Shown: positions 23,201-50,435 of the stretch, in pieces
Position numbering within the stretch: the first letter of the stretch is position 1
How the letters are laid out: every line of letters starts with the position of its first letter
Assembly (NCBI GenBank): GCA_036365145.1
Contig: JAEOAD010001279.1
Coordinates: 17,651 to 81,650, forward strand
Reading direction: 5' to 3'
From: Orientallactaga sibirica
Taxonomy: Eukaryota; Chordata; Mammalia; Rodentia; Dipodidae
DNA length: 64,000 nucleotides
Notes under the pieces: model-generated
Seen by the model: the letters and a program-made list of their open reading frames with translations, nothing else
What the model was told of the DNA's origin: nothing
Database searches by the model: none
Made by a program: the position numbers and the translations under genes

Positions 23201-26200
23201 GACCCTGTATCACAAGCCACAGTGGGCATACACGCCTACTTTGACCAAATTAAATCGTTATCTCTTCAAGGGCTTAAGGCCTGCCTCCCCAGAAGCCGGA
23301 TACCTATTTTCGTAATCTGGTCAGGGCGCTTCTGAGGGCTTCACAGATTTTCCTCTCGTGTGACAGAGTCCGTGGACGTCAGACTCCCCTGGCCCCACCA
23401 GGGCCCAACTGGCATGGGAAGGAGCATCCGCAGCGTAATGCTGGGTAATGAGGACCTCCATAAATGGATTGTAGCTACCAAGGATATCAATCCTGTGTCT
23501 GCCCCTCGAGGCCCTGGCCGCCTCAATACAAACCCTGACCATGGGTCAAAAGCCCACCCAACAACCACCCCTCTGCTGGGGCTGTGGCAAACCGGGACAC
23601 CTTCAGAGGACCTGTCCAAACACAACTAAGCCTATTTTCAGGCCCCAAACCCCTGCCCTAAATGTCAAAGGGGGTATCATTGGGCCAAGGATTGTAAAAA
23701 TTCTCTGCCTTTAAACTTCCCCAGGGGCAACCCTTGCAAGTAAGAGGGAACAACCCCACATTAGATGGACTCTGCCTGTTTATGACCATTCACCCTGCAT
23801 CTCTGTCCTTTTGGATGGGGTTGAATTCAAGGGCATAGTAGACACAGAACGGATGCCACTATTATCTCTGCCAACGATGCACTCCCATGCCCAATTGGGG
23901 CCTATAAAGAGGGTCCCAATATTAGGGGTGTTGGGGGACAACAGACTACTAGACAGGTTAGAGACCAGTTACATGGAAAGACTGATGGCAACACGGGGAA
24001 TTCTTCCCCCTAGTAGCAAATGTCCCAATACCCTCTGGGGAAGAGACCTCCTTACTGACATGGGTGTTGTCATAACAACAGATGACCAGGCCTTTTATGA
24101 TGATATTATTGCCCATGATACTATTGGTCTTTCAGGGCGACCCAACCCCTCAAAACCACCCGCCATTCATCATCACCCCAATTCTAGAGGCCACTGTCCG
24201 ATCCCCTACCGCTCCCACAGTGGGATACCACGGAACCCATTTGGGTCGAACAGTGGCCTATACTAGAACCTAAATTAACTGTTCTCAAATCCCTTATTCA
24301 AGAACAGCTTGCTCTTGGCCATATTGAGCCCTCTATTACATAATTCCCCCATCTTTGTCATTAAAAGAAAATGGGTAAACATAGACTGCTCCAAGACCTT
24401 CGCCAGGTTAATAAACATATGTTAAAAATGGGCTCTTTTCAGACAGGCCTTCCCCACCCTGGAGCCATCCCTACTAACCACCATATAGTTATCTTAGATA
24501 TTAAAGATTGCTTTTTCTCTATCCTTTGGCAGCAGAGGACAGGCCCTATTTTGCCTTTACTGTGTGGGAGCCCAACCACTCTATCCCAGCTAAAAGATAT
24601 CAATGGAGGTTCTTTCCCAGGGCATGAAAAATAGTCCTTCTATGTGCCAAAGAGAATACAATCTAAGTGCCTTCTTGTTCATTACATGGATGATCTTTTG
24701 ATTGCACATACCTCAAAAACTGCCCTTTTGGACCTTCTTAAATTACTCATTGAGGACCTCAAAAAACTTGGGTTTGCCATAGGGAAGGAAAAAATTCAAA
24801 CAGTGCCCCCTTTTGGATTTTTAGGATACAAAATTTCCACTACTATACAACCACTTACCCCTCATCTTCTAATAAAGGACCATTATTCTCTCAATGATCT
24901 CCAAAAAAGCCAAATTAACTGGCTCAAACCTTTCTTACCCATCCCTCCTAGTGAACTCCTACCACTTTATGACCTCCTTAGAGTTACTGACAACCCTTCA
25001 AGAAAAATTCCTCTAAATCATCACTCCAAAAATTTGTTACATAAAATATCCCACTACCTCTTTTCTATGACCCTCGCAACATATGACCCATCTGCTCCAA
25101 TTCTAAATGTAGTCCTTTGGACGACAGGAGCACCATTGGGAGTCATCTGGCAAAACCAATCGCCCCTTTACTGGGTACATCCCTCATGGGCACAGGCCCA
25201 TAAACTCACCACCAACCTACAAGCAATGCTCCTCATAGCAATTAAGACACGCACCTACACTAATAAAATCTATAATACAGAACCCTCCCAAAATAATTCT
25301 GCCCATCCCCATGTCTGAACTTCAACTTCCCCCTTTTCCACATCCTAATGGCAGGATTCCCCCAATGAGATAGATAACCAGCCCACAAACTACTCCAATC
25401 CCTAATGGCTTTACCCATCAAGACTAACTATTTCTCCAGGCCTTCCGGTCAGCCTATACCCTTAGCAGCCTCGGCCTTTACAGATGCCAATAAACATACC
25501 TATGGGCTAATTATTAAGAGAGCCAATCGATCAGATGAGGCCCTTAAGTTCCCTAACCCCATTCAGTCCAGCTAGGAGAACTATATGCCATCATCAGAGT
25601 CTTAGAGCTCTGTCAACAAGAGCCTGTCAACATATTCTCTGACAGCAGTTACGCTGTTCAAATGACAAAGGTACTGCCCTTAGCCAATCCCAGGCCCTCT
25701 CATCATCCCATAGACATTGCCATCTCCGCTTTACAATTGCAGATGGAAAACAGATCCTACCCTTGGTTTATTGAGCATGTTCGCTCACACACTGGCCTGC
25801 CTGGCTTTATTGCTGATGGAAATTCACAGGTAGACAAATTTATTGCTGTCTCCTCCTTGCCACCTTTAGAACAAGCCAGACGTTTACACCAAAGGTTCCA
25901 TCTATCCCCCACTAATCTAAAAACCCTATATCCTGAGCAGCCAATGCAAACATTTAACCCGTGACTTGTAAGCCCCCTAGCCCCCTGGGCCCCCTACAGC
26001 CTCAAGGAGTCAATCCTAGAGGCCTTACCCCAAATTCTATCTGGCAGTGGATGTTACCCACATACCTTCCTTTGGTAACCTCAAATATGTCCATGTCATT
26101 GTGGACACTTACTCTAAGCTTACTTTTGCTATTGCTCTCTCTGGGGAAAAGGCATCCCATGTTATTAAGGCAACAAAACTGCTATGTTAGTCATGGGCGT

Positions 26201-29200
26201 GCCCTGGTCAATTAAAACAGACAATGGCCCTGCATACACATCTGCCCAATTCACATCCTTCATGGAATCTTGGGAATAAAACACTCCCTTCCCTACAACC
26301 CACAAGGACAGGCCATCGTGGAAAGAACAAACCGGACCCTAAAGGAACTAATTATAAAACAAAAGTCCACTATGTCGCCCAAGGACTTGGCCCTAGTGGA
26401 AGCTCTTTTCACCCTCAATTTTCTTACCTTTGATGAGGCAGGACTCTCCCCAGCCTACAAACATTGGAGACCCCAACCAACCACAACACCCTTACCCTTA
26501 GTCCGCTGGAAAGATCCTCTTACTAATATTTGGAGGGGCCCCACCCTCTTTAACGCAGGGCCGAGGGTATGCTTGTGTCTTCCAGAAACTTCACAGATCC
26601 CAGTTTGGGTTCCTGCCAGAAACGTCCGTCCAGGACTCAGCGACCACCCTTACTGCCCCAGACCCCTCAGTCACGGGACTTTAAACTTATTTCCCCACCG
26701 CCACTGACCAGCGACCAGCCTTGCTGAAGAAGATGATGCCAGATCCCTCAGACTACATACAGGACTTTAAACTTATTTCCCTCCACCAGCCACTGACTCA
26801 AATGACCAGCCTTGCTGAAGAAGATGATGCCAGACCCCTCAGACTACATATGGGACTTTAAACTTATCCCCCCACCTAGCTATAAATTCCTTTCCAACTC
26901 CTTTCATTACATTGAGCTGCTACCATTAAGGACACTCAATGCTACTGACCTAGGGTGAACTCACCCAGCAACCTGTCCTACCCCAGTCTTCTTCAGGCTC
27001 TCTAGTTGATTCTTGCTTGCTGGGACTGTTCACATGCCACAGAGCCCGCCAACTTGGCCCTTCCATGCCTCCTAGGCAACAGCCTCATATGTATGGTACA
27101 ATACAGGCCTGGTCCTAGCCAGACCTCATGCTAAAAGCCATACCAGGCCATACCCTCGGTTTTTCTCACCAGGATGGCAGCCAGCCCAGGACGGGTAAGA
27201 TTCCATGAGATGGGGCAACCTAAGACAGGCACTGTCACATGTGATGATCCCTTGGGGCCTGGGTTCAACAATGGCTTTCCAAAAGCCATACCAGGCTATC
27301 CCCTTGGGTTTCCTCACCTAGGTGGCATTTGGCCCATGACGGGTAAGTCTCCATGAGATGGATCAACCTAAGACAGGCACTGTCACGTATGATGATCCCT
27401 TGGGGCCTGGGTTCAACAATGGCTTGGCAATAAACCATACCTCTCAGGGTTGCCAATAATAAAAACAAAAGGAGGATATGTATGGCACAATACAGGCCTG
27501 GTCCTAGCCAGACCGCATGGCAAAAGACAACTTTCCATGGCGTTTTGTGAGGCTTGATGTGACAAAAGTTACAGCCCCATGCTCGCGAGAGGCCTACTAC
27601 AGATGTCCTGTCCAGAGACAAGCTGTCATTGGTCACCAAAAGGGGACCGCCCCATGCAAAGATTAACAGCCCCTTAAAACCCATGTACACTTCCTGAATA
27701 AACGAAGTTTGTGGGTTCTCGCTCCCACTTTCACCCAACTCCCGGAGTCTGTGTCGTGACTGCTGCTCACCCCATTCGGCAGAGACCCGACGTCCCTCCT
27801 GAGCTGGCCTTGGGGGGGAACAAAAGGGGACAGTGGAGGCTGTTTGCAAAGATGAAGAGACAGGTCAGGTAGTAGATTCCACATCTCCCATCAGAAAAAG
27901 GAGGGGAGAAGAGACAGCATGACCAGACATATTGGTTGTGGGCAGAGACCCCAGCCTGACAGGGACCCTGGACCCCAATGGTGCCTGGAAGGGGCTTGCT
28001 GGTTGGTGATTTCAGGGATCTCCCTCCTGACTGACCCTGAAGTGTCCTGAGAGCAGGGGGATCCTCCAGAGTCACTCGGGCCAGGATCAGGAAACCTTGG
28101 GGTCTCCTGACCCCAGAGAGAGGCAGCAGAGCATGTCAGCTGAGCCCAGTGTCCACCTCCTGGGGAGACAGGCGCCCCCGACCCAGGACAGACCGAGAAG
28201 CATCCCCATGGCCTCCCTCACCTGTGCGCAGCAGTGTCTCCTTCCCGTTCTGCAGGTATCTTCCGAGGGACTCCACGCAAGTGCCCTCCAGGTAGGCCCT
28301 CCTGCGCTCTGCCTCATCAGCCTGCTCCCACTTGCGCCGGGTGATCTGAGCCGCCATGTCGGCCGCGGTCCAGGAGCGCAGGTCGTCGTTCAGGGAGATG
28401 TAATCGCGGCCGTCATAGGCCTGTTGCTCGTACCCGCGGAGGAGGCGTCCATCAGGACCCACGGAGCAGCCAGACATCCGCTGGATGGTGTGAGAGCCTG
28501 GCCGCGCCCCAGGCCGTCAGCCCCGCCCCGCCCCGCCCCGCCCTCCGCCCCGGGGCTCCGCGTGAAGTGAAAATGAAACCCAGCCTCGTCCCCGCTCAGC
28601 ACCCCGCGGTCCCGCATCTCCCCGCGGACGCTCGGGCGCGGACGTCCCGTGGGGTCCTGCGGGGTGACGTCCTCGCGCCCGGGCCGCTCACCGCCTTCGC
28701 TCTGGTTGTAGTATCCCAGCGCCGTCCGCAGGCTCACACGGAAAATCTCTGCGCTGTTCTGTAAGATCCTCGTCCCCCTGTCCCAGTAGTCGGGACCCTC
28801 CTGCCGCATCCACGGCGCCCAAGGCTCCATCCTCGGCGTCGCCGCGTCGCTGTCGAAGCGCACGAACGGCGTGTCGTCCACGTAGCCGACGACGATGAAC
28901 CGGGGCTCCCCGCGGCCGGGCCGGGACACGGCGGTGTGGAAGTAGAGCAGCGAGTGGGAGCCTGGGGAGGACGCGCGCTGAGACCCCGCGGACCCGGGCC
29001 AGGGCGGGGCCGTCCGGCGTGCAACCCCGGGAGGGCCAGGGCGGGGCCGTCCGGCGGGCACCCCCGGGAGGGTCTGGGCGAGGGCCGACGTGCGGCGTCC
29101 CCGGGCCCCCAGGCCGTGTCCGCCCCTCCGTCCACCACGCACTCACCGGCCCAGGTCTCGCTCAGGCCCAGGGCGGCCGCGAGTAGCAGGAGCAGCGTGC

Positions 29201-29210
29201 GGGGCGACAT
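20187..29210 (-). CDS. MHC class I heavy chain, seven coding exons
   Basis: Single-pass membrane glycoprotein that would bind beta-2-microglobulin and present peptides to CD8 T cells. The coding exons (29147-29210, 28692-28961, 28222-28497, 21089-21364, 20858-20983, 20366-20398, 20187-20230) add up to 1089 bp, or 362 residues plus stop. No frameshift or internal stop is seen and every junction has GT/AG. In mature numbering Tyr7, Tyr59, Tyr84, Thr143, Lys146, Trp147, Tyr159 and Tyr171 (peptide-end binding), Cys101-Cys164, Cys203-Cys259, the N86-Q-S glycosylation site and the CD8-loop Gln226/Asp227/Glu229 are conserved. This suggests a classical-type molecule; Trp167 is Ser and Tyr99 is Ser. 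Oddities: a repeat-built transmembrane helix, a stop three residues early, and a 6.3-kb provirus in intron 3. A non-classical gene cannot be excluded. Confidence 0.95.
20366..20398 (-). CDS. class I exon 6 (cytoplasmic tail)
   Basis: 33 bp as in HLA genes, encoding [11 protein letters not shown] including the conserved Tyr of the endocytic tail motif. Acceptor TCTCACAG, donor GTAAGT. Confidence 0.93.
20571..20719 (-). repeat. B1 SINE in class I intron 5
   Basis: It lies between exons 5 and 6. B1-sense is the same strand as the gene. Confidence 0.9.
20858..20983 (-). CDS. class I exon 5 (connecting peptide and transmembrane)
   Basis: Encodes [11 protein letters not shown], then about 23 hydrophobic residues nearly all Val, Ala, Phe and Leu, then six Arg and Lys-Ser. 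At DNA level the hydrophobic part is three consecutive 24-bp units starting GTGGTCGCTGTC, and the Arg run is AGG repeated. The donor is GTAGCC. Confidence 0.93.
21089..21364 (-). CDS. class I exon 4 (alpha-3, C1-set Ig domain)
   Basis: 276 bp. Starts [11 protein letters not shown] and contains [18 protein letters not shown], then the [19 protein letters not shown]8-contact region and [10 protein letters not shown]. Acceptor TTTCCCCAG, donor GTGAGG. Confidence 0.95.
21365..21501 (-). other. class I intron 3, part downstream of the provirus
   Basis: Original intron sequence between exon 4 and the provirus target duplication (AAAGGG 21502-21507). Confidence 0.8.
21508..21803 (+). mobile_element. 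provirus 5' LTR (short form)
   Basis: 296 bp, from TGTATGGCACAATACAGG to GGGACCCCAACA. Contains an ATTGG box, an AATAA-type polyadenylation region (AATAAGCAG, degraded) and several 1-2-base deletions relative to the 3' LTR. It lacks the about 60-bp segment found at 27537-27597 of the 3' LTR. Confidence 0.9.
21806..21823 (+). other. primer-binding site, tRNA-Lys type
   Basis: TGGCGCCTGAACAGGGAC lies two bases after the LTR end. It is complementary to the 3' end of tRNA-Lys3 except for one C-to-T change. Confidence 0.88.
22190..23735 (+). pseudogene. provirus gag remnant
   Basis: The frame opens with GTG-Gly-Pro-Lys, where a start codon and a myristoylated Gly would be expected (inferred). 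A capsid-like stretch lies at 22922-23335, with a beta-retroviral type sequence around [18 protein letters not shown]. Two CCHC zinc knuckles are recognisable, [14 protein letters not shown] near 23574 and [11 protein letters not shown] near 23668, in different frames. Frameshifts and stops separate the pieces. Confidence 0.78.
23780..24275 (+). pseudogene. provirus protease remnant
   Basis: FKGIVDTE stands where the catalytic DTG-Ala would lie, so the active site is altered. The downstream [11 protein letters not shown] is typical of the C-terminal part of retroviral aspartic proteases. Confidence 0.65.
24205..25320 (+). pseudogene. provirus reverse transcriptase remnant
   Basis: WVEQWPILE and LLQDLRQVN belong to the fingers region and YMDDLLIAH (near 24688) is the catalytic box. 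The palm segment just before it is deleted and frameshifted around 24530-24645. The thumb/connection part is open from 24644 to 25318. It is not able to encode an intact enzyme. Confidence 0.82.
25470..25964 (+). pseudogene. provirus RNase H remnant
   Basis: [20 protein letters not shown] and [10 protein letters not shown] mark the RNase H core, spread over two frames with stops near 25575. Confidence 0.75.
25880..26707 (+). pseudogene. provirus integrase remnant
   Basis: The His-rich N-terminal part is at about 25885. The core is broken by stops at 25964-26215, but TDNGPAYTS and [17 protein letters not shown], which carry the second Asp and the Glu of the catalytic triad, are preserved. WVPARN near 26613 is the C-terminal domain. 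Confidence 0.8.
26690..26880 (+). repeat. about 85-bp tandem duplication after integrase
   Basis: GACTTTAAACTTATTTCCC recurs at about 26680, 26763 and 26853, with CCAGCCTTGCTGAAGAAGAT between the copies. No env-like frame follows. Confidence 0.8.
27090..27465 (+). repeat. LTR-start copy plus two about 160-bp tandem units before the polypurine tract
   Basis: 27090 starts TGTATGGTACAATACAGG like the LTR. Two tandem units (about 27130-27285 and 27286-27445) then share ATGGCAGCC/GACGGGTAAG, CAACCTAAGACAGGCACTGT and TGATGATCCCTTGGGGCCTG. Confidence 0.85.
27479..27822 (+). mobile_element. provirus 3' LTR
   Basis: 344 bp, preceded by the polypurine-like AAAACAAAAGGAGGATA. AATAAA is intact at about 27697. 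It is followed by the AAAGGG duplication and then class I intron. Confidence 0.9.
27829..28221 (-). other. class I intron 3, part upstream of the provirus
   Basis: Ordinary intron sequence next to the exon 3 donor (GTGAGGG). Confidence 0.8.
28222..28497 (-). CDS. class I exon 3 (alpha-2 domain)
   Basis: 276 bp. Starts [17 protein letters not shown] and contains [19 protein letters not shown] and [15 protein letters not shown]. Cys101 and Cys164 and the residues that clamp the peptide C-terminus (Thr143, Lys146, Trp147) are present. Confidence 0.96.
28692..28961 (-). CDS. class I exon 2 (alpha-1 domain)
   Basis: 270 bp. Starts [20 protein letters not shown] and contains [19 protein letters not shown] and GYYNQSE, with the Asn86 glycosylation site. 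Acceptor CTCCCCAG, donor GTGAGC. Confidence 0.96.
29147..29210 (-). CDS. class I exon 1 (signal peptide)
   Basis: [20 protein letters not shown] then Ala, typical class I leader, donor GTGAGTG. The start was chosen because it is the first ATG after the TATA box and gives the canonical M-x-P-R-T-L-L start. Confidence 0.94.
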
Positions 29211-29216
29211 CGCTCC

Positions 29217-29430
29217 CTATGGGGACTCCGGCCTGTCTGAGTCCCCGCGCGGTCCCCGCTGTCCTTTATAACCCGGGAGGGGCTGCGCGCTGATTGGCCG
29301 CTCCTGGAAGCTTCTGACCAATGAGAGCGAGAGTGTGGTACGTGTCATCAGTGTCCTGGCAAAAGGAGCCCAGCGGGGTTGGTGGATGAAGAAGTGAAAG
29401 TCCAAGAGATGGGGAATCCCCGAGGCTGGG
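29217..29430 (-). promoter_or_regulatory. class I promoter (left, functional-looking copy)
   Basis: On the minus strand, from distal to proximal: kB site GGGGATTCCCC (29411-29421), ISRE-like ACTTTCACTTC (about 29389-29401), X2/CRE-like TGATGACACG (29341-29350), a Y-like box CTCATTGGTCAG (29314-29325), a CCAAT box GGCCAATCA (29291-29299) and TATA (TTATAAAGG about 29262-29270). These are the sites through which NF-kB, IRF and the RFX/CIITA/NLRC5 enhanceosome control class I genes. Confidence 0.88.
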
Positions 29431-29574
29431 CTTCCCCACCGCGGGACCCCCCGGCCTGACCCGGGACTGTGTCCCCCGCCCCGCCCGTGTCCTCCAGACC
29501 CGTGGACTCGTCACGAGTCGAGGGCGGAGGTCTTAGCCACACAAGTTTTCTTGTTTTTCTCCTTTTCCGAAATA

Positions 29575-29715
29575 GCCTTGTGGGAATTGTGTCTGTGCAG
29601 ATGTCTCAGTGGTTAGAGGCACTTGCTTGCAAAATAGACTTACCTATATTACTTTTCTAGAACTTTCACAAAATGGTTATTTCAACATAGCCTAAACTTG
29701 TTATGTTCAAGATAG
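29575..29715 (+). repeat. SINE-head-like segment in the left promoter arm
   Basis: CAGATGTCTCAGTGGTTAGA followed by GGCACTTGCTTGCAAA resembles a tRNA-SINE head. The same segment exists mirrored at about 30728-30775. Confidence 0.55.
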
Positions 29716-29868
29716 GGCCGGGCATAGTGGCGTAGGCCTTTAATCCCAGCACTCAGGAGGCAGAGGTAGGAGGATTGCTGTGAGTTTGAGGCCACCCTGA
29801 GACTGCATAGTGAATTCCACGTCAGCCTGGGCTAGAGCGACACCCTACCTCGAAAAACAAAACAAAAA
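29715..29868 (+). repeat. B1 SINE in the left arm, shared with the right arm
   Basis: Preceded by CAAGATAGGGCCGGGC, as is the mirrored B1 at 30512-30640. Both share the unusual GAGCGACACCCTACCTCG end. Confidence 0.88.
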
Positions 29869-29883
29869 AAAATTAATACTAAT

Positions 29884-30040
29884 AGCCGGTCGTGGTGGCA
29901 CGCCTTTAATCCCAGCACACTCGGGAGGCAGACGTAGGAGGGTCGCTGTGAGTTCAAGGCCCCCCTGAGACTACATAGTGAATTCCAGGTCAGCCTGAGC
30001 TAGAGTGAGACCCTACCTGGAAAAACTAAACAAAAATAAA
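29884..30040 (+). repeat. B1 SINE in the spacer of the inverted duplication
   Basis: Complete copy, not matched in the other arm. Confidence 0.9.
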
Positions 30041-30473
30041 TAAAATAATAATATTCAAGATTGGACTGCCCATGTATTATTCTCAATGGTTGCAAACAGC
30101 CTGTGTCTCAACTTGCCTGGATTTGACCTATTCTTTGACTTTTCCGCACAGTGACGTGGGTTCAGAGACCCTGATGGAAACTCTCTTCAGTGCAGGGAAA
30201 CACGGGTCTGAAGGTCAAACTCCAGCTCTGCTGTGCTTGGGACCATAAACAGCCTTCAGTGCTGAGACTCTGGAGATCCTTCTGGACAAATGACCAACCC
30301 ATGGAGAATAGGAGAGGACAGAGGGACGCTCAGAGAAAGTGACTGTCAACCCTCATCCAAGCTGGCTTCCCACTGGGGAGTGGACACTTCTGAGCCACCT
30401 CTCTCGAGGATTCTGTTCTGAAGTTACTTTCACTTCTGGCTGCATATTGTCTCTGTGTTTTCAATTTTAAATG
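30041..30473. other. spacer between inverted arms
   Basis: No gene or repeat recognised; a short plus-strand B1 scrap (CCCAGCACTCAGGAGGCAGA) lies at about 30480-30505. Confidence 0.5.
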
Positions 30474-30511
30474 TTTTATTCCCAGCACTCAGGAGGCAGA
30501 GATAGGAAGAT

Positions 30512-30640
30512 ATTTTGTTTTTGTTTTTCGAGGTAGGGTGTCGCTCTAGCCAAGGCAGACCTGGAATTCACTATGTAGTTTCAGGGTGTTCTCAAACTCA
30601 CAGCAATCCTCCTACCTCTGCGTCTCTCCACTACGCCCGG
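30512..30640 (-). repeat. B1 SINE in the right arm (mirror of 29715-29868)
   Basis: Reverse B1 with an internal deletion of the CCTTTAATCCCAGCACTC segment, joined to CTATCTTGAATAT as in the left arm. Confidence 0.85.
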
Positions 30641-30724
30641 CCCTATCTTGAATATCATAACAAGATTAGGTAATGTTAAAATTACCGTTTTGTTATTGTT
30701 CTAGTAAACTAATATAGGTAAATC

Positions 30725-31128
30725 TATTTTGCAAGCCAGTGCCTCTAACCACTGAGACATCCGCACAGACAAAATTCCCACAAGGTTATAAGAAAACTTG
30801 TGTTGCTAAGACCTCCCCCTCAACACGTGACGAGTCCGCGGGTCCGGAGGACGGGGGGGGGGGCACAGTCCCGGGTCAGCCCGGTGAGGGTCTGCAGTGG
30901 GGAAGCCCAGCCTCGGGGATTCCCCATCTCCTGGACTTTCACTTCTTCAATCGCCATCCCGGCTGGGCTCCTTCTGCCCGGATACTGATGACGAGGCCCT
31001 GCCGCTCGCTCCCATTGCCTGACGTGTACCTCAAGCGGCCAATCCGCGCGCGGGCCCTTCCCGGTTTATAAAGGGGGCGACTGATGCGCGGGGACTCAGA
31101 TGGTCCCCAGTCCAAGATGCCAGCAATG
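30725..31128 (+). promoter_or_regulatory. second class I promoter and start codon, plus strand (right arm)
   Basis: Mirror copy of the class I upstream region: kB GGGGATTCCCC (30915-30925), ISRE-like ACTTTCACTTC, X2-like CTGATGACG (30985-30993), CCAAT (GGCCAATCC about 31038) and TATA TTTATAAA (31065-31072). The Y-box region reads CCCATTGCC, so that CCAAT core is lost. The presumed start region GGGGACTCAGATGGTCCCCA and ATG at 31117 resemble HLA leader exons (Met-Ala-Val-Met); here Met-Pro-Ala-Met is followed by TAG at 31129. Confidence 0.82.
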
Positions 31129-31198
31129 TAGCAGACTGCCAGCGGCTGTTTTAAGAAGGACCACGCAGACTGCCTCAGGGCCTACTCAGGGCTGATTG
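31117..31198 (+). pseudogene. Gfra1-like: chimeric exon: class I start codons joined to GFRA1-like exon 7
   Basis: ATG-CCA-GCA-ATG, then TAG, then a frame reading GCFKKDHADCLRAYSGLI, which matches the GFRA1 sequence around CLKENYADCLLAYSGLIG. The exon ends ATT-G before GTAAGA, the same phase as GFRA1 exon 7. The class I ATG is in frame with the receptor part apart from the single TAG. Confidence 0.8.
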
Positions 31199-31252
31199 GT
31201 AAGATGAGAGAAGATGGGTGGGCGGACAATCTCACTTAAAAAATCTGATGAG

Positions 31253-31412
31253 CAGGGTGTGGTGGCGCACGCCTTTAATCCCAGCATTTGGGAGGCAGAG
31301 GTAGGAGGATCGCTGTGAGTTCAAGGCCACCCTGAGACTACATAGTTAATTCCAGGTCAGCCTAGACCAGAGTGATACCCTACCTCGAAAAAAAAAAAAA
31401 AAAAAAAAAAAT
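31253..31412 (+). repeat. B1 SINE
   Basis: Complete copy with a long A tail, in the first GFRA1-like intron. Confidence 0.92.
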
Positions 31413-33545
31413 CTGTTGATGTCTGCACAAGTGGAAAATTTCTGGTAGTCTCTATGCTGGGGCTATCAAGATAGGCCCTCTAGGATTCACCAGTAGGAAA
31501 AAAGGAACGAGAATAGTAACAAGAATAATGGATGTAAGGAAAGCAGGGCCTATTAAAAAGCATGTCAGTTGAGGAACTTCTCACACAACAATGGTGGGGG
31601 AAAGTGTTAACATTGAAGAAGACAGCACGTAAAACAAAGTTAACTGAATTAGAGAGCTTTGAGGAGAAGGAACTTGGGAATCATTCTGTTTGGGTGAATA
31701 AAAGATGTTATTCCCCAGAATTGGCCCTTTTGAAATAAACACCCAATATTAGGTGCTCTTGCAATTATTGTTCTTGTTAATCTGACTCCTGTTGTGCAGG
31801 GGATGATTAAGGATTCTTTTCCCTCTAAAGATACTGTTTGCAGAACAGGAACAGCATTTTTAGCCTTTTGAACCTGTGAACAGTTAAACATGGCTCCCCT
31901 GTGTGGGAAGAGCCTGAAAGAGGAAAGGATGTCTGAGGCAAAGGTGGCCAGCAGGAGGAGAGACAGGTTTCCTCAGGTAAAGTAGAAGCCTCTCTGTCAG
32001 GGCCTGGCTGCATTTAGCATTTGAAAAGATCACCCAGTGAAGGCTGGGAAGGTGTGACAAATCAGTTACCATATCTTGATGGCCCAGTGTCGCCCATTCC
32101 TGGGTGTCCCTGTACCTTTCTTAAGTCAGAACTTGAGATTTGCGTTCACATTTTCCTCTTAGCAAAATGAGGCATGTTTGCTGTTAAAGATAAAAGGAAA
32201 ACAAAGCCAGTGAAGCTCCCAGAAGGCACTGTTAAGTGTCTGCAGCCCACTCCCAGGTGTAGCAGCTGTCAGTACTTCAGTCTGTATCCTTCCAGGAGTC
32301 CATGCTTGTTAGCTCCCCTATGGGTGGCCAAAGCCAGGTCCTGCCAGGACCTCGTTGAGCTCTCCTAGGCTTCACAAATCCAATGATGAAATGGAGGGAA
32401 CAAAGGGCAGAGGCAGAACTTTCTACAGACCAAAATTTCTTTATCTCTGGGGTCTGGATCTGTCCCTCCATACTAGCTAATAAGTCCATGGATCCTACCT
32501 TCTGCACAAAGCTTGTCTCTACCTCTTCCATATGTCAGGGACCCATTGTGGTATCAGGTATCAGATATCTTTTCCTTTCCCAATGTGTTAGACCTCCCTG
32601 TACACTACAGGTTAAAATTCTCATACTAAGATGTACTGGGTTATTCATGTTCAAGTCAGTAAGGAATGTGGAGAAACTACAATATGCCCTTGATTCAAAG
32701 AAGCTTACCAATTACTGTTTGTGAGCCAACTCATCTTATGGACTACTGGCCACCTATTTCTTCTTTTCTCTACAAAGTAGCGAAATACACAAGGTCTTGA
32801 CGTCCTTGGGCAACCTTGGTGTGAACCACTCAGAGGAAGACATCAGGGTTGTATTGTGCCCAAATGCATTGAGTATTTGAGCCAGTGGAGAACTGACCAG
32901 CAAAGCCATGAATGTCACAAGCTATAAGCAGACAGGTCGATCTAGCTGAACCTCTTTGAAAAGTGTGAATAGTCCACATATAATAGTTAGGAACCCTTAG
33001 GGAAGAATTGTTTCCAATTCTTTTACAACTTAAACCATTGAGACTCTGGGCCTCATTATATACATTTGCATATATTCAGGATGTGGGGAACCCATTGGAC
33101 TTTACAAGCTTCCTAGTGTTACGCTCAGAACAATTTGCTCCTGTTAGCAGTGGATTAACAGCCCCCAAGTAATTTTTATGATATGTCACCCAGTATTATC
33201 TATTTATGAAGAGTAAGGACTTTTTTTTTCAAGAAAAAGCAAGGGATTTTGCAGCTCAGGCATTCTGAGTTAATTATACTTCTTTCCTACTCCATGAGAT
33301 CCAAACCATTTGTGCAAGAAGAAAATACCCTAAATGCAACCCAAAGAGTTTAGTTATAGTTTTAAAAGTAAAGGTGTAAGTTATTTTATATGCTGTAGAT
33401 AAATTGCAAAGCAAATGGCACTGCTTAACGTAATGCCCCATTCAGCAATTAGTGTTTGTGCATCCACCACAGAGGAACGCTTTCTTTTTAAGCTACAGAG
33501 AAGTCCATAACATCACAGGAAGATGACATGTTCTCATTCTTTCAG
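31413..33545. other. GFRA1-like intron 7
   Basis: No exon seen. Short open frames at 31649-32072 (minus) and 32174-32724 (plus) have no recognised family. Confidence 0.5.
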
Positions 33546-33680
33546 GCACAGTTATGACCCCCAACTATATAGACTCCAGCAGCCTCAGCGTGGCCCCAGG
33601 GTGTGACTGTAACAACAGTGGGGATGATCTACAAGAGTGCTATGAACTTCTGAATTTCTTCAAGAACAATATGTGTCTTA
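33546..33680 (+). pseudogene. Gfra1-like: GFRA1-like exon 8
   Basis: 135 bp, acceptor TTTCAG, donor GTAAGT. Reads VMTPNYIDSSSLSVAPGCDC then NNSGDDLQECYELLNFFK. All Cys of this part of GFRA1 are kept; the Trp before CDC is Gly. Confidence 0.9.
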
Positions 33681-34432
33681 GTAAGTTTTTGAAAGATGGG
33701 AAGCATGCAAACACAAGCATACTTTCCTCTCTAGGCTCAATGTGAATGCTTCTGTTATAACTGCTCTCTCCCCTCTCTCACTGTCCTTTTCTCTCTCCCT
33801 CTCTCCCGCCCTTCTTTTTGTTGATTGCTGGTGGTAGCTCTAGCTCCTTTTGGCACATTGACTGATAGAGCAGGGAACCACACAAGTGATGAACTGGATG
33901 CTGTCCAGATTGTGATCCCAATGCCTCAAGAGAATAAGTGGTTCAAATAACAGACTGCATTATGGGAAAGAACCCTTCTTCCTGCCCATCAGAGTTAATC
34001 TTCACAGCCAGCACGAGTCTGCTCCCAAGGTTCCAAACCCCTGAGAGGAATGCACAGTGTGAGAATCTGACAAATTAGATGGAGACAGGTCTCTAAGGAC
34101 TCTGGTAAAAATCAGAATGCTAACCCCAACAGCTAGCTTCTTGGGTTTCCAGGGTTGGCCTAGAGTAGAAACAACACATCTTGGAAGGCGAGCTAGTCAT
34201 GCAGCAGAGAGATGCAGGACACCTTGGGAGATCACTCGTCACTGTGAGCAAGGATAGAGCTGCTTATCCATGGCACTGTGGGCATGCTCTGGTTGACTGT
34301 CCAGCTGACACTAAAACTTTCTTCAGTCCTGTGACAACCACCACTTACGAAGGGCCTTCTGTGTGTTCTAACTCACTATTTTATATCTCATTTTCTGTTC
34401 TCAAACAAGAATATTAGGACCAAATATATAAA
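33681..34432. other. GFRA1-like intron 8, start
   Basis: CT-rich near 33770-33820; otherwise nothing recognised. Confidence 0.5.
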
Positions 34433-34590
34433 AGCCAGGCATGGTGGCACAAGCCTTTAATCCCAGCACTTGGGAGGCAGAAGTAGGAGGATGTCCATAA
34501 GTTCAAGGCCACTTTGAGACTACCGAGTGAAGTCCAGGTCAGCCTGGCTTAGAGCAAGACCCTACCTCAAAAGAGAGAGAGAGAGAGAAT
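34433..34590 (+). repeat. B1 SINE
   Basis: Complete copy with a (GA)n tail. Confidence 0.9.
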
Positions 34591-34624
34591 GACATATAGA
34601 TCTCTTATCTGAGTAAAAGTAGTA

Positions 34625-34700
34625 TTACTTTTAAATTTTTTTATTTATGAGAGAGAATGGGGCATGCTAAGGCCTTTAGCTGTTGCAAATGAACTCCAAA
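34625..34700 (-). repeat. tRNA-derived SINE fragment
   Basis: Only the tail-side part (TTTTTTATTTATGAGAGAGA to GCAAATGAACTCCAAATG). Confidence 0.7.
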
Positions 34701-34755
34701 TGCTGACACAGAGTGTGAGATGGGAGGAGGAGACAGAAGTTCTTAAAATGCTCAC

Positions 34756-34866
34756 TGAGGCCAGGCGTGGTGGTGCACGCCTTTAATCCCAGCATTCGGG
34801 AGGCAGAGGTAGGAGGATTGCCGTGAGTTCAAGGCTACCCTGAGACTACATAGTGAATTTCAGGTC
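34756..34866 (+). repeat. B1 SINE, truncated
   Basis: Ends at GTGAATTTCAGGTCAG; the last third is missing. Confidence 0.85.
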
Positions 34867-35233
34867 AGAGAAACATTTCAGAGAAACACTGCCTCAAATG
34901 AGGTGGAAAGGCAAAAGACTGAACAACAGTGTACTTTGATCTCCATATGTGCATGCCAGGACATGTCAAATGAGATGGAAAGTCAAAACATGAACAAAAC
35001 ACTTTGATCTCCACATGCACACATGCACACACATAAAAATGCCTATTCACACAAGCACATGCACACAAAGTAAAAGCACAAGAATCAAGAGTTTGGATCA
35101 CCAGCCCGCACTCAAATTCTTTGAAGATATGCCTGCCCGCCTGTAGTTCCAGGTCTTGGGAAACAGGATCCTGTAGCAAGCTGGCTAGCTAGACTATTTG
35201 AATATGTAAGCTTTGTGTTCAAGTTTAAGACTG

Positions 35234-35422
35234 GGCTGGAGACATGGCTTAGTGGTTAAGACGCTTGCCTTCAAAGCCTAAGGACCCATGTTCTACTCTC
35301 CAGATCCCATGTTAGGTAGATGCACAAAGGTGAGGCAGGTGCAAGGTCTCACATGCCCACTAGGTGGCACAAACATCTGGAATTCAATTTCAGTGGCTGA
35401 GGCCCTTGTGTGCCAATTCTCT

Positions 35423-35469
<47 letters not shown>

Positions 35470-35475
35470 CTCTCT
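35234..35475 (+). repeat. tRNA-derived SINE with (CT)n run
   Basis: Head GGCTGGAGACATGGCTTAGT; the pyrimidine run at 35427-35467 is a nearly pure (CT)n. Confidence 0.85.
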
Positions 35476-36044
35476 AAAAAAAGTTTAAGACTATGTATTA
35501 GTAAATAAGGTGGAGAATGATGGAGAAAGATTTCTGACACCAAGCTCTGGCCTTCATGAATACTCACACATGAGAATGTGTGCACACACCACATACACAT
35601 GCAACCAATCAATCAGAAATAAAAGTCTTAGATTCTGAGGTAAAATTCAAACCCATAAATTGAGCCATAATATGGTGGATTTGGTAAGATCTTTGTTGTT
35701 TTGAGACATTTCAACTTGGACCTCTGGTTTGGTCTTGACTTTATTCATTTATTTCCTGTATCTTGCACTTCTCTGACCAAATGAAAGTTTTATCAGAGAT
35801 AAGGCAATGACAGTAGAATTAACATGAGGAAAGATTTCACCCAAAACTATAATGTTGCAGAAAACAAGCTTCCAATTTTGCTAAACTTAAAGGATAATAA
35901 TGTTAGAACCATATCTAGAGGGATGTTAAGGCCTAAATGCTTCTATCCTTGTGTATCAAAAAATGCCAACTACGTGTCATATATTAACAAGTTGCACATT
36001 TGGGTCCCAAATGAATGACTTTGATTAAAAAATTTTTTTTTTTT
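35476..36044. other. no feature seen
   Basis: AT-rich intron sequence. Confidence 0.4.
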
Positions 36045-36048
36045 TTTT

Positions 36049-36087
<39 letters not shown>

Positions 36088-36226
36088 TTTTTGAGATAGG
36101 GTCTCACTCTAGCCCAGGCTGACCTGGAATTCACTATGTAGTCTCAGGGTGGCCTTGAACTCACAGTGATCCTCCTACCTCTGCCTCCCCAGTGCTGAGA
36201 TTAAAGGCGTGCGCCACCACGCCTGG
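36045..36226 (-). repeat. B1 SINE with (TTTA)n
   Basis: Reverse copy, poly-T then a (TTTA)n run at 36048-36090. Confidence 0.92.
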
Positions 36227-36354
36227 TCCTGATTTCTTATACTATTAATATGAAATGAAGTCCTCAATCCAGGCCAAATCCCAAAGACATAATTCAAAAC
36301 TGTTTCTTATCCATTTTGGCGAAGGAATAGCACACATTAAATTTACTCTGGTGG

Positions 36355-36606
36355 ACTGGAGAAATGGCTTAGCAGTTAAGGCCCTTGGCTAAGAAGCTTA
36401 AGAACTCAAGTTAGTTTTGCCAGTTCCTACGTAAGCCAGATGCACAAGGTGGTGCATGCATCTGGAGTTCGTCTGCAGTGACTAGAAGCCCTAGTGTGGT
36501 CTTTCCTTCTTTCCTTCATTCCTTCCTTCTTTCCTACCTTCCTACCTGTGTACCTACCTACCTTCCTTATCTCTCTTTCTAATAAATAAGTAAATAAAAT
36601 TTTAAA
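36355..36606 (+). repeat. tRNA-derived SINE with CCTT-rich run
   Basis: The usual CT run has become CCTTCCTTTCCTACC-type repeats at 36500-36570. Confidence 0.82.
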
Positions 36607-36769
36607 AATTACTCTGGCTATGAAAACAATTTAATGAGCTTTAAGAGTTTTACATTTTTAACTTTTCATATAAACAGGACTGCTTCTACCTAATGATGGA
36701 GATTTTGTTTAAAAGAGTGGGAGCAGGAAGGGAAAAATGAGCTTACTTTTTTTTATTTTTGAATTTTTA

Positions 36770-37023
36770 TTATTATTATTTTATTTATTTTTGGAGAGAG
36801 ACACAGGGAGAGGGAGCGGGAGAGGGAGGCAGATAGAGATGGGCATGCCAGCAGTCTCTCAGCTGCTGTGAACAAAATCCAGATGCGTGAGTCCCCTTGT
36901 GGGCAAGTGCGACATTGTGCCCTTGCCTCACTGCATCTGGCTAAACGTGGGATCTGGAGATTGGAACCAGGTTCTTAGGATCAGCAGGCAGGCGCCTTAA
37001 CCGCTAAGCCATCTCTCCAACCC
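36770..37023 (-). repeat. tRNA-derived SINE, long subfamily
   Basis: Carries the extra TTGTGGGCAAGTGCGACATTGTGCCC segment also seen at 46748 and 50905, so it belongs to a distinct subfamily. Confidence 0.88.
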
Positions 37024-37180
37024 ATAAGCTTACTTTTTAAATAGTCACTACAATTAATAATAACTTTTGTTCAGAGAAGTCAAATGCTATAATTGGGATG
37101 TCTCTCTCTGGCTATGGGTTTTCTGACTTGTTACCTTTGCTGCCTCACTTTGACATTAGTTTTTCTTTGTTTTACTGCAG

Positions 37181-37317
37181 AAAATGCAATTCAAGCTTTT
37201 GGCAATGGCTCTGATGCTGCCATCTCCACAGCTTTCTGGGTCAAGAAGACTCCGGGACCAGCACGGTCTGAAAATGAAGTTCCCAAACACGTCTTTCCAC
37301 CTTGTGAAAATTTACAA
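37181..37317 (+). pseudogene. Gfra1-like: GFRA1-like exon 9
   Basis: Acceptor TTTACTGCAG, donor GTAAGA. NAIQAFGNGSD is identical to GFRA1, then a shortened linker, then ENEVPKHVFPPCENLQ. Relative to GFRA1 (about 182 bp by my recollection of the protein) it is 45 bp shorter, an in-frame loss within the Thr-rich linker. Confidence 0.9.
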
Positions 37318-38184
37318 GTAAGAAGTGGGTTTAGATTTCCCAGGGCTCACTTGTGAGGAGAACGGGTGGGCATGCATTTATTTTCTGAAATGATAGGAAA
37401 CGCTGCTCAGATTTGAATCTTAAATCTCCATTTTAAACATCAGTAGAGATTGTGGTAAGTCATGAAGTAAAGAGATGATGGGCCATAGAACTGGCTGCTT
37501 CCTACTAAGGACGTGTCATTGGTCAAGACACTTGTATCTGGTCTAAAATAACGAGGGATCCAGAGAGGTGCACCCCTGAAGTTTTGCTTAGAGTGTGTAG
37601 AGTTGTGTTGGCTATCTGTCTATGTTTACTGCTGATTCTGTGACTTCATAAACTGCAGCATATTGAAAACAAGGAGCTCCTGCTATGTCACCATTGTGGG
37701 CCATTTGGACCATGACATGGAGTATTTTAACCATCTCTAAATGTAAACCAGACAGTGTTACTAGTCAAATCTTAGCTTCTATTTGGAGTCCTGGAAGGGA
37801 TAGTTCTTTAGAAGTAAATGCTCATCCACAGTGAGAGGAGCTGCACAATGCTCATCCACAGCCTGTGAATCAAATGAGAGAGAATGTTTAGGGAAACTTC
37901 TTAGTGATTAATGCAGATGTGTGATGGGGAGTCAACACCTATATGGTGAAGTTTGTTGGTCTTTAGTCAAAAGCAGAGTGTTGATGCTGGTCTTTTTATT
38001 GAATTTTCAGCAATAGTGAGTATTCACCTATTTGTCATTAGTTATTTGGAGGTTCACAAAAGAGTCTCCCACAGTTCACCTCTTTGGATGGTCTGCTGAC
38101 AGCCAGTGTCCTACTATGACAGTGTGGTCTCCCTCTTTCTCTGAATACACATGGCTTCAGAAAAATGACAGTTCAGGCTGGATC
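37318..38184. other. GFRA1-like intron 9, first part
   Basis: No feature seen. Confidence 0.4.
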
Positions 38185-38345
38185 TAGCAGTTCATTTGTG
38201 AAGTAAGGGCTATTCTCCAGGTCCCACATAAGCCAGATACACATGGTTGTGCACATCTGGAGTTCATGCCCATTTTTCTCTCTCTCTCTCTCTCTCTGTC
38301 ATAAATAAATAAATAAAAATAATAAAATCTTTTAAAAAAAAAAAA
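38185..38345 (+). repeat. tRNA-derived SINE, degenerate
   Basis: CACATAAGCCAGATACACAT body and ATAAATAAATAAATAAAAAT tail. Confidence 0.7.
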
Positions 38346-39449
38346 GAAAAATGACAGTTCTATTCAGGTATGTAGAGCTCATGGGTCACAGAAGTACTGA
38401 GAATCCAGGAGCCTCATCTTTCCATACGTGTCCTGGACTTCGGGAGGAGGGGTGACCACCTGGTGACTTCTCCTTCCTGCCATGCTGGAGAAAGAATGTT
38501 TATACAGCCTGTGTTTCAACCTCTGAGCTGTGAATTCCCACGTCACTTTTCCACCTCCCTGCCAAGGACCATCCTCACTGGAATTCTCAGCAGTGGCCTT
38601 CTTACGACACATGCCTTCTTCATCTCTGCTCACTAGAAAGAGTCGAGTCATTTTCTCTCTTCTTCCAGTTTGTATGATGCTGCCTCAGTTCCACTGTTTC
38701 TTCTCTTCTTAGTTGTCTACGTGGCCTTCATCTCTGTCCTCATCAGTCCTAGCTCTGCAGTCCAACCCACAGTCTTAGAGACATTCACTCACACAAAATG
38801 GCAAGGAGAGTCAGATAGGGAGACCACCAAGTTCAAGGTCAACCCAGTGTCCTTTAGATTTCTAAAGCACTTTTGGAAGCTTTACCATGTCCCAAGCCCT
38901 GCACACAGTAGGCTAGAGCTAGGAGGCAGTTTGGGAAATGGTTTGTGGCACCTAATGTCTCCATTCTCCAGCACTGCCAAGAGTCGGAGAGCAGGGAAGA
39001 AAGTGACTTTTCTAGTCTTCAGCTGGGTGGAGGTGGATCTAGAGTCAGCAAGGACAAGGTTGCTTCTCTGTCTCTGACCAAGGCTCTGGCCCTGCTTTCC
39101 TCCCCACAACACAGCCTTTGCTGCCTGTGCCTCCCTCAGATTCCAGTGTCAGTAAGTCAGTGGCCAGGGGAAAGCTAAGATGGTGTAATCACAAGGTGAT
39201 CAAAGATGCCAACGTGACTTGTGAACAGTAAGAGAGATGAGCTCAGCAAAACCTGAGTCTTTCTGCACACAGTTAGATATGCAAAGGATGACTTCAGAGG
39301 CCGCCTCCAGCCGGTTACTATGTCTGCTTTGTGGTTTAGAAACTACTTGGGATGAGTATTCAAATCTAAAGCTAAACTTCATTCCTCAGTGAGTAATGGG
39401 CCACCAGTGACTACACTTCTTTTACGTTTTTCTGTTTACATCACATCCA
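38346..39449. other. GFRA1-like intron 9, second part
   Basis: Several short open frames without recognised motifs. Confidence 0.4.
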
Positions 39450-39510
39450 CGTCCAGGCTAAAATCCACGTGTTGTGGCAGCACACACCTCTGTCTTTCTG
39501 ATGGGGCATT
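39450..39510 (+). pseudogene. Gfra1-like: GFRA1-like exon 10, splice sites lost
   Basis: One frame reads LKSTCCGSTHLCLSDG, matching GFRA1 LKSNVSGNTHLCISNG. The expected acceptor reads ATCCAC instead of an AG. The nearest AG (39455-39456) would shift the frame into a TGA. The donor position reads GATGGGGC without GT. Confidence 0.8.
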
Positions 39511-39567
39511 TCCTTTTGGAGGTCTCTGCCTCTCTGTCTTTCTGAGATAAATGGTAGGTGGATTAGA

Positions 39568-39653
39568 TTTGATAGATAGATAGATAGATGATAGATATAG
39601 ATAGATGATACATACATACATACATATGATAGATGGATGATAGATAGATAGAT

Positions 39654-39684
<31 letters not shown>

Positions 39685-39755
39685 GATACATACATACATA
39701 CATATGATAGATGGATGATAGATAGATAGATAGATAGATAGATGGATAGATAGAT

Positions 39756-39790
<35 letters not shown>

Positions 39791-39792
39791 GA
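39568..39792. repeat. (GATA)n compound microsatellite
   Basis: GATA tracts alternating with ACATACATACATACAT blocks and GATGGATGATA, partly in a duplicated arrangement (about 39590-39660 and 39660-39730). Confidence 0.92.
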
Positions 39793-40765
39793 TAAGGTTT
39801 CAGGTCTGAAAAGTCTCACCACCCTCTATCTTCACCTGCCTGAGGAACAAGGTGCAGAGCTCAGGATCAGTGTACACATAACTAAACACGGGCCTGGGGC
39901 TCTTTACTATAAAGCTGGCCTCAGCACTAGGCTGGTTTTCCCATGCCTGCAGACCCTGTGGTTAGGCACATGAAATCATCTGGCCCAGAGCAGAGACAGA
40001 AATGCTCACTGCTGGCTGCATGGCTCCTACCTCTCCTGTGACCTCATAGAAGGCCACTGGGAAATAGGTCTGGTCCCCAACTCTTCCCATGGACGGGATG
40101 AGATGGCTAGTTGTGTTCGGTGGCGAGTCTCTATTGTGTGGGGACAAGGCGTGGGAATGAGCATGTGTAGATTGAGTGTGGGGAAAGACACCCATGCTGA
40201 CCAGGGGTCCTATAGCCTGAGTTCTGACTTGGGGTCTCCCGCTCAGGAACTAGACTAGGTTCTTGCACCCCAGGACTCCTCGTCTATGAAATCTCATGTA
40301 GAATATCTGGAGATCGAAGGAAAGCTCTGTTCTTATGTGCATAAACCACACATCCTGAGATAGTTCTTCCTGTCCTCTTTGTCCTGTGCAGAAGGACAGC
40401 AACAGCCCTCCTTAGTGAAGGCCACCCTGAAGGAGAAGGGTTCCATGCTGCATAGCTGCCAGCTGACCCATGGCAAGGGAAGAGGGGCAGGGAGACCCGA
40501 TCTCAAATACTTCCCACCAGAAAGGGATTTTCACAGTCCTTTGTGATGGTCAAACAGTAAACATGGCTAGCCACTTGATCAAAGAAAAAGTTCCTGCTGC
40601 CGTCTCATCAACTCCAAGTGACCAAGTGGAAGTCTCAGTGGTAAAACGCTGGGCCAGTTTTGGTTAAGGAGACTGCCCTTTGGGAGTGGGGACTGGGAGA
40701 GGGGAATATATCATAATGCAGTAGGTACCCGCAGTGGGTAATAATGAAAACGTTCTTTCTTACAG
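39793..40765. other. GFRA1-like intron 10
   Basis: No feature seen. Confidence 0.4.
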
Positions 40766-40921
40766 CAGAATTATGGAAAGGATGGCCTGGCTGGTGCTTG
40801 CAGCAACATGAGGACAAAATCAATGGCTGCCCCTCCCAGCTGCAGACTGAGATCACTTCTGGTTCTGGTGGCAACTTCTCTGTCCACCCTTTATCTTTTG
40901 TTTTATTTTATTTTTTTGTGA
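40766..40921 (+). pseudogene. Gfra1-like: GFRA1-like last exon with B1-derived C-terminus
   Basis: Acceptor TTCTTACAG. Reads NYGKDGLAGACSNMRTKSMA then APPSC, close to the rodent GFRA1 end with its GPI-attachment region, and a hydrophobic tail. After LSTLYLL the codons come from the reversed poly-A of a B1 (Phe/Tyr/Ile/Leu) and the stop TGA (40919-40921) is inside it. Confidence 0.85.
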
Positions 40922-48853: not shown

Positions 48854-49750
48854 TTGGTACATTATAATACAAGAAACACAAAGAATAAAGACAATACAAT
48901 CCCACCAAAAATTATAAATCCATCAGAAATGACAACCAATGAGACTGTTTTAGATGAAATGCCTGACAAAGATTTCAAAAAAATGATTTTGTCTATACTC
49001 CAAGAAATCAAAGGAATAAAAGAAGAAAAAGGAATTTAAGAAGAAAACAAACTCCCAAAAGAAAACACAGGACCAACTTAATGAAATAAGGAGGTCATTA
49101 CAAGATATGAAGAAGGAAATAGAAATACTGAAAAAAAAAAAAAAAAAAAAAACAGGCTGAACTTGTAGCTCTGAAGAACTCAGTCAATCAAACAAAAACT
49201 CTGGGAAGTCTCACCAGTAGAATGGATGAAGGAGAGAACAGAACATCTAAACTAGAAGACCATATGGCAGACCTAATGCAGTCTACCAAAGAGAAAGACA
49301 AGCTAATAGGAAGGTATGAATGGGAATTTCAAGATATCAAGGACACTATGAAAAGATCAAACATAAGAATTCAGGGTATAAGAGAAGAAGAAGAATTTCA
49401 ATCCAGAGGCTTAGTAGGCATTTTCAACAAAATCATAGAAGAAAAATTTCCCCAAATTGGGAAAGAAATGCCAATGCAGATACAAGAAACTTTTAGAACA
49501 TCAAACAGACAAAATCTGGAAAGAACCTCTTCTCACCATGTTATAATAAACTACTAAACACACAAACCAAAGAAAATATATTGAAAGCAGTTAGAGAGAA
49601 AAGTCACCTACAAAAGCAAACCCATCAGAATAACAGCTGATTACTCAACACAAACTTTAAAAGCCAGAAGGGCTTGGAATGATGTATTCCAAGTTCTGAA
49701 AGATAACAACTGTCAACCAAGGTTACTTTATCCTGTGAAGCTATCCAAAT
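48854..49750 (+). pseudogene. LINE-1 ORF1 remnant
   Basis: ORF1p is the RNA-binding trimeric chaperone of LINE-1. Visible are the coiled-coil start (PDKDFKKMILSILQEIKGIK), then a Lys-rich stretch with stops, then the RRM part (SNIRIQGIREEEEF, FNKIIEEKFPQIGKEMP) open at 49222-49557. Stops near 49037 and 49557 and an A-run at 49131-49152 break it. Confidence 0.85.
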
Positions 49751-50435
49751 AGATGGAGAAATAAGGACATTCCAGAACAAAAGCAGGCTAAAGGAATATT
49801 TGAAGACAAAACCAGCTCTACAGAAAATACTTGAAGGAATCCTTCAAGCTGAAGAGAAAGCAAAACACACTCCAGAAATAAGAAAAAACAAACCACAAAC
49901 TGTTAAAACAAGCAAACAAAGGGAAAACAGGAAGCACTACAAAATAAGAAGAATGGTGAGAATAAATACATACCTTTTAATAATAACTCTTAATATCAAT
50001 GGCCTCAATGCCCCAACCAAAAGACACAGGTTTGCAGATTGGATTAAAAGGCAGGATTCTGCCAATTGTTGCCTCCAGGAAACTCATCTCTCAATAAAAG
50101 ATAGACACTGTCTTAGAGTAAAAGGATGTAAAATGGTGTTTCAAGCAAATGGGCCTAGAAAACAAGCAGGGGTTGCTCTCCTAATATCTGACAGGATAGA
50201 CTTCAAACCAACATTAGTGAGGAAAGATAAAGAAGGTCACTTTATACTGATTAAAGGAACACTCCAACAGGAGGACATTACAATCCTAAATGTATATGCA
50301 CCTAACATAGGCTCCCAATTTCATCAAACACTATCAGACTTAAGGTCACAGATAACACCAAACACAATTGTAGTGGGTGACTTCAATACCTCACTCTCAT
50401 CAGTGGACAGGTCATCCTGGCAAAAAATAAACATA

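Follow-up and report, generated by a model that had tools for sequence, protein, structure and literature searches.

A major histocompatibility complex class I promoter fused to a truncated GFRA1-like fragment, a probable pseudogene, in the jerboa Orientallactaga sibirica

The human gene HCP5 (P5-1) is a hybrid HLA class I/ERV16 gene for a long noncoding RNA (PMC6562477). In HCP5, a class I promoter and leader start are joined to foreign sequence, an arrangement ascribed to nonhomologous recombination; TATA, CAAT, kB, and interferon sites are present, and the orientation is the reverse of that of nearby class I sequence (PMC6562477). Here, we describe a comparable locus in the jerboa Orientallactaga sibirica, on a 64,000-base stretch of contig JAEOAD010001279.1 (GenBank assembly GCA_036365145.1, positions 17,651 to 81,650), which we call the window. 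On its plus strand, a promoter of the major histocompatibility complex (MHC) class I type with kB, interferon, CCAAT, and TATA sites is joined to foreign sequence, namely, the tail of a GFRA1-type exon 7, followed by exons 8 and 9, a relic of exon 10, and exon 11, all in reverse orientation to the neighboring class I gene. By our comparison, HCP5 is the nearest precedent for this locus. The two differ in that HCP5 has retained exon 1 and some of intron 1 of the class I gene before it passes into ERV16 (PMC6562477), whereas here only about four leader codons are left, class I exon 1 is not retained, and the partner is a multi-exon fragment of a receptor gene. HCP5 is also expressed (PMC6562477), whereas a transcript of the locus here is hypothetical.

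Our data support a real chimera that was made by rearrangement and is well preserved, with a sharp breakpoint. We consider it likely that the locus is an unprocessed, 5'-truncated pseudogene of a jerboa-lineage GFRA1-like paralogue, in which the fusion point lies within exon 7 and the attached class I promoter is an inverted copy. An earlier, sequence-only reading of this DNA had proposed that a class I promoter is fused to GFRA1-like 3' exons, and the TATA-like box, the start codon at 31117, the exon 7 tail, and exons 8, 9, and 11 are indeed present in that order (Table 1). The exon 10 that it listed has its place in the series but survives only as a relic without a GT donor. The plus-strand promoter is likewise there, not as a lone element but as half of a head-to-head inverted pair.

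The plus-strand promoter is of the class I type, because an inverted copy of its 5' flank precedes a class I gene confirmed by Pfam. Positions 30628-31113 match 29730-29223 with 79.1% identity over 517 columns (blastn, E=7.6e-125), and in a gapped alignment of the two promoter copies the final stretch, 31111-31131, is identical at 14 of 20 positions. The kB site GGGGATTCCCC occurs twice in the window, once per promoter, against a mean of 0.04 in 100 shuffles, and the element that we take to be ISRE-like (interferon-stimulated response element) gave two matches with no mismatches where two were allowed (shuffle mean, 0.11). In the stretch that is presumably the SXY module, 38 of 52 aligned positions are identical to those of the neighboring class I gene, and the Y-box core reads ATTGC in the plus promoter versus ATTGG in that gene. 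Measured from the TATA-like box TTTATAAA, the first base of the cap-like sequence GACTCAGA is 28 nt past the start of the box and 21 nt past its end; in HCP5, it lies 26 nt downstream of the TATA box (PMC6562477). The unchanged kB and ISRE-like sites make interferon/NF-kB control of the plus promoter plausible. The S box is described as critical for NLRC5 and the H2-K Y box as contributing in part (PMC4374748), so the altered Y core need not silence the plus promoter. According to one study, TATA-like and initiator-like (Inr-like) sequences are dispensable for class I promoter activity (PMC3001478).

At the junction, class I homology fades near 31131, and receptor homology starts near 31132-31135. 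The leader stub has a second in-frame ATG (31126), whose counterpart in the alignment is the start codon of the class I gene on the minus strand, and the codon right after this ATG is the in-frame TAG (31129-31131) to which the sequence-only reading had already pointed. With the ATG at 31117 in the same frame, the class I start codons reach this stop after four codons and one codon. The window contains no N, and bases 31114-31236 have no other match in it (blastn).

Beyond the breakpoint, exons 7 (tail), 8, 9, and 11 join in frame across three introns with GT-AG sites. Compared with PDB chains, the spliced exons matched rat GFRA1 best (4ux8_C, E=7.6e-58); three entries that bear just the name "GDNF family receptor alpha" (2.6e-28 to 8.3e-28) rank between it and the best GFRA2-named entry (2.7e-20), and the best GFRA3 entry scored 1.8e-14. 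The fragment resembles GFRA1 (rat 4ux8, human 6q2n) in exon order, in reading phase, and in the cysteine pattern of what remains of domain 3 (D3), where six of six cysteines are kept. It differs in that it stands in the window without exons 1 to 6 and in that exon 10 is dead. For exons 1 to 6, tblastn of the window gave a chance-level best match with rat GFRA1 (E=0.61) and, with the Jaculus protein introduced below (P0149) as query, a best match of E=0.49 inside a minisatellite. Where a GFR alpha has three GDNF/GAS1 domains, we found one partial PF02351 match (profile positions 32 to 87 of 87). Neither a signal peptide nor complete 5' exons of a GFR alpha were found in the window by tblastn, and the class I leader frame stops after four codons. 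The exon 10 relic, read from the AG before 39457, is 46 nt long and out of frame. The exon 10 peptide scored 67 there versus 17 at the next-best place on the plus strand and 24 at the best on the reverse strand; the end of the exon was placed by means of proteins that skip exon 10 (P0018 and P0046). The C-terminus, which we looked at for a glycosylphosphatidylinositol-anchor signal, is hydrophobic, and its end is derived from a short interspersed element (SINE).

Table 1 Features of the chimeric locus and the head-to-head class I gene (positions in the window)
Feature	Position	Strand	Basis
Class I promoter with its 5' flank and the opening leader codons	30628..31131	+	inverted match to the flank of the class I gene on the minus strand
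Unchanged enhancer A kB site GGGGATTCCCC	30915..30925	+	pattern search
ISRE-like site (presumed), same in both promoter copies	30934..30949	+	pattern search
SXY module region (presumed)	30969..31020	+	gapped alignment of both promoters
CCAAT box, kept in both copies	31039..31043	+	read in sequence, gapped alignment
TATA-like box TTTATAAA	31065..31072	+	read in sequence
Cap-like GACTCAGA	31093-31100	+	read in sequence, compared with HCP5
Class I leader stub ATG CCA GCA ATG TAG (Met-Pro-Ala-Met-stop)	31117..31131	+	
Breakpoint between class I and GFRA1-like homology	31129..31135	+	homology limits
GFRA1-like exon 7 tail, donor GTAAGA	31132..31198	+	
GFRA1-like exon 8, AG acceptor, GTAAGT donor	33546..33680	+	
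GFRA1-like exon 9, with 14-residue deletion common to P0149	37181..37317	+	
Exon 10 relic, GG where GT donor expected	~39457..39502	+	
GFRA1-like exon 11, final codons and stop (40919-40921) from SINE-derived sequence	40766..40921	+	
SINE overrunning the C-terminal codons	40904..41034	-	
Class I gene: leader, alpha-1, and alpha-2 exons	28136..29216	-	leader read, Pfam
Class I gene: promoter, partner arm of the inverted repeat	29223..29730	-	blastn, gapped alignment

From which gene did the receptor part come? A protein search scored on the fragment returned 305 matches, and the statements that follow concern the best 120 of these 305. Among these, the nearest relative is the Jaculus jaculus protein "GDNF family receptor alpha-1-like" (UPI001E1AF6C6; P0149), which is 83% identical over 66% of the fragment (BLASTP). 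It is only eighth by E-value, because it covers less of the fragment. At a coverage of about 90% or more, most placental GFRA1-type proteins are 54 to 66% identical to the fragment (a Pteropus model, 41%; marsupials, 48%), and rat and ape GFRA1 reach 58% over about 90%. In a multiple alignment, the fragment is 75% identical to P0149 versus 63 to 69% to the other six rows, and in a tree of 18 rows it joins P0149 with support of 99/96. The two have 11 derived residues in common relative to three GFRA1 outgroups, 6 of which lie outside the variable stretch of exon 9, and they share the 14-residue deletion in that exon. The P0149 model also reads on past exon 9 into the intron, and the frame it uses there is that of the window (VRSGFRF.RA). 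According to its prediction, P0149 includes a start and three GDNF/GAS1 stretches, whereas in the window copy these domains are represented by the end of the third alone, followed by exons 9 and 11. Since the start of intron 9 is common to both, the introns came along with the exons; a retrocopy was rejected on this ground, and direct descent from GFRA1 was rejected by the shared derived residues and the tree. These data point to the genomic DNA of a GFRA1-like paralogue as the most likely source of the fragment; P0149 itself may be a paralogue or the orthologous locus in a related species. The rearrangement proposed by the sequence-only reading is supported, with its sharp breakpoint, but the nearest relative of the partner is a jerboa-lineage GFRA1-like protein and not GFRA1. 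For the same reason, its argument that MHC class I and GFRA1 lie on different human chromosomes does not apply as stated. Searches for GFRA1 DNA gave no match in viral contigs and 26 pattern matches in genome contigs, none of the 26 being a relative. In the titles and abstract beginnings that our literature search covered, we found no description of a diverged GFRA1-like paralogue in Jaculus and, under GFRA1 pseudogenes with MHC class I in rodents or jerboa MHC class I, nothing on this locus.

Other rodents have diverged proteins of this type as well. A GFRA1-like protein of Perognathus longimembris (P0014) has nine derived residues in common with P0149 in its N-terminal part and none in its C-terminal part, and at 12 further N-terminal positions the two have changed differently. 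Its C-terminal part groups with Perognathus GFRA1 (98/95), as does the protein in the 18-row tree (99/97); in an N-terminal tree, the fork leaving P0014 and P0149 outside has support of only 89/88, with a root that is a drawing choice. An old paralogue shared among rodents, with later gene conversion, is a possible explanation of the P0014 pattern. Two proteins of Nannospalax galili (P0043 and P0067) are also diverged and of the GFRA1 type, with a deletion of the same length elsewhere in exon 9.

Is the fragment decaying? Since its split from P0149, 16 replacements fall on the window copy alone versus 4 on P0149 alone (binomial p=0.012; 113 columns, with one dropped for a gap in P0149 and two undecided). 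Without the variable stretch (positions 79 to 92), a hand count gave 14 versus 2. One of the 16 is a Trp-to-Gly change in APWCDC, a site where Trp is found in all 10 of the other covering rows of one alignment and all 7 of a second. Together with the TAG, the lost exon 10 donor, the SINE, and the missing exons 1 to 6, this makes the fragment look decayed. The combination found here, with introns kept and homology to the parent, disabling lesions, and a relaxed rate, is that of an unprocessed pseudogene. Selection read from the open frames alone was rejected by a neutral simulation (substitutions only, no indels, 4,000 runs each), in which 50% of runs were free of stops at 16 replacements and 41% at 20. 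Thus, with half of neutral runs free of stops, the open frame is no evidence for selection.

Several observations weigh against a pseudogene of this descent. Over 338 bases, exons 7 to 9 show no frameshift and have preserved both their frame and their canonical splice sites, which drift that includes indels could well have disrupted; this absence of indels is mild evidence of constraint, whether recent or partial. In the tree, the fragment fills only 34% of the columns, the branches of the fragment and P0149 are long (0.28 and 0.25), and the path from the fragment to the GFRA1 rows is slightly the shorter one (0.49 to 0.50 versus 0.53). The exon 9 deletion is weak by itself, because a gap of 14 residues in exon 9 is found in the two Nannospalax proteins as well, though the aligner places it elsewhere. 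The P0149 model is itself a prediction and stops within intron 9, which makes its 3' end tentative. Finally, 53 of 56 aligned positions in the kB/ISRE stretch (30895-30950) are identical between the promoter copies, which may mean that the plus promoter was or is in use.

What product could the locus give? The kB, ISRE-like, CCAAT, and TATA-like sites would permit the promoter to fire, and a transcript would run from about 31093 to 31198, a modeled exon 1 of about 106 bases, and be spliced to exons 8, 9, and 11. In the modeled leader, a frame of 31 codons starts at an out-of-frame ATG (31100). Of the frames that follow, the longest has 139 codons, starting from an exon 8 ATG (TVMTPN), and lacks a signal peptide. 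A GDNF co-receptor has to be secreted and to carry domain 2. Such a role, which the sequence-only reading had entertained for the fragment, is not supported: it is contradicted by the absence of exons 1 to 6 (signal peptide, D1, and D2), by the stop after the class I ATG, and by the pseudogene-like decay. The likeliest product, if any, would be a mostly noncoding RNA under class I control.

Alternatively, the locus could be an expressed and regulated hybrid RNA gene of the HCP5 kind, giving a spliced RNA that responds to interferon and NF-kB and acts in its own right, perhaps by pairing with the RNA of an intact GFRA1-like gene or by titrating it. The unchanged kB and ISRE-like sites, the cap-like sequence at an HCP5-like spacing, the canonical splice sites, and the reported regulation of HCP5 by IFN-gamma (PMC6562477) are consistent with such a gene. 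We nevertheless regard it as unlikely, given the changed Y-box core and the limited identity of the SXY stretch to its neighbor, and the likeness of the two promoters may predate the fusion. A truncated protein made of D3 plus tail, for which translation would reinitiate in exon 8 and the hydrophobic C-terminus would serve as the anchor, would fit the 139-codon frame with its hydrophobic end and the intact cysteines. Its cysteines would face the cytosol in the absence of a signal peptide, the copy has more replacements than P0149 and has lost the Trp, and the modeled leader carries the earlier out-of-frame ATG; this makes a coding chimera extremely improbable. The broader proposal that the class I promoter gives either an inducible spliced RNA of this kind or a tail-anchored D3 fragment of 139 residues, and hence an independent, nonretroviral counterpart of HCP5, strikes us as distinctly doubtful. 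An abrupt breakpoint would also be expected if an assembler or a chimeric molecule had linked separate copies of a class I promoter and a GFRA1-like gene. The continuous sequence and the unique bases around the junction speak against such a join, and both partners have diverged from the nearest relatives seen, which means that an error would presuppose two more loci that were not seen; we hold it to be very unlikely. The truncated, unprocessed pseudogene is the reading that we prefer.

In the neighboring class I gene, the alpha-1 and alpha-2 exons match PF00129 (E=2.8e-39 and 5.9e-43), and a C1-set match near 21114-21326 on the minus strand marks alpha-3 (E=6.5e-14). The two head-to-head promoters form an inverted repeat at 29223-31113, with 897 bases between them, about half of which are SINE-like. 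When exon 1 and the alpha-1, alpha-2, and alpha-3 exons of the minus-strand gene were compared with the window (blastn, E up to 0.01), they matched nothing but themselves; the idea that the class I body had been moved to a more distant place on the plus strand was rejected, as none was found within the window. Between the alpha-2 and alpha-3 exons lie broken pieces of an endogenous retrovirus (23715-26707, plus strand), in which reverse transcriptase, RNase H, and integrase are matched, each in a frame apart from the others, while a protease match falls short of the Pfam cutoff. A direct repeat (21508-21794 and 27479-27817, 80% identical) flanks this stretch and possibly represents its long terminal repeats. 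Elsewhere in the window, we observed a large, degenerate 18-base minisatellite that is open in several frames on both strands (56573-57281), a minisatellite cluster with units of 97, 56, 34, and 45 bases (14858-18058), a tandem array of 7.9 copies of a 115-base unit (4845-5735), and an L1 fragment with Transposase_22 and endonuclease matches (49132-50465, plus strand). Rfam gave no matches at gathering scores over all 64,000 bases, and a bacterial promoter scan of 30900-31200, a method unsuited to this DNA, found nothing.

How might the chimera have arisen? An inverted duplication would have set two class I promoters head to head, leaving a second promoter copy and the first leader codons beside the class I gene. 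A nonhomologous break would then have substituted the 3' part of a GFRA1-like gene for the body of the second class I copy, after which the receptor fragment would have drifted. The locus points to the diverged GFRA1-like paralogue that is predicted in Jaculus, and it is a clean case of the class I region lending ready-made inducible promoters to foreign sequence. If it is transcribed, hybrid genes like HCP5 would seem to arise repeatedly, without a retrovirus being required.

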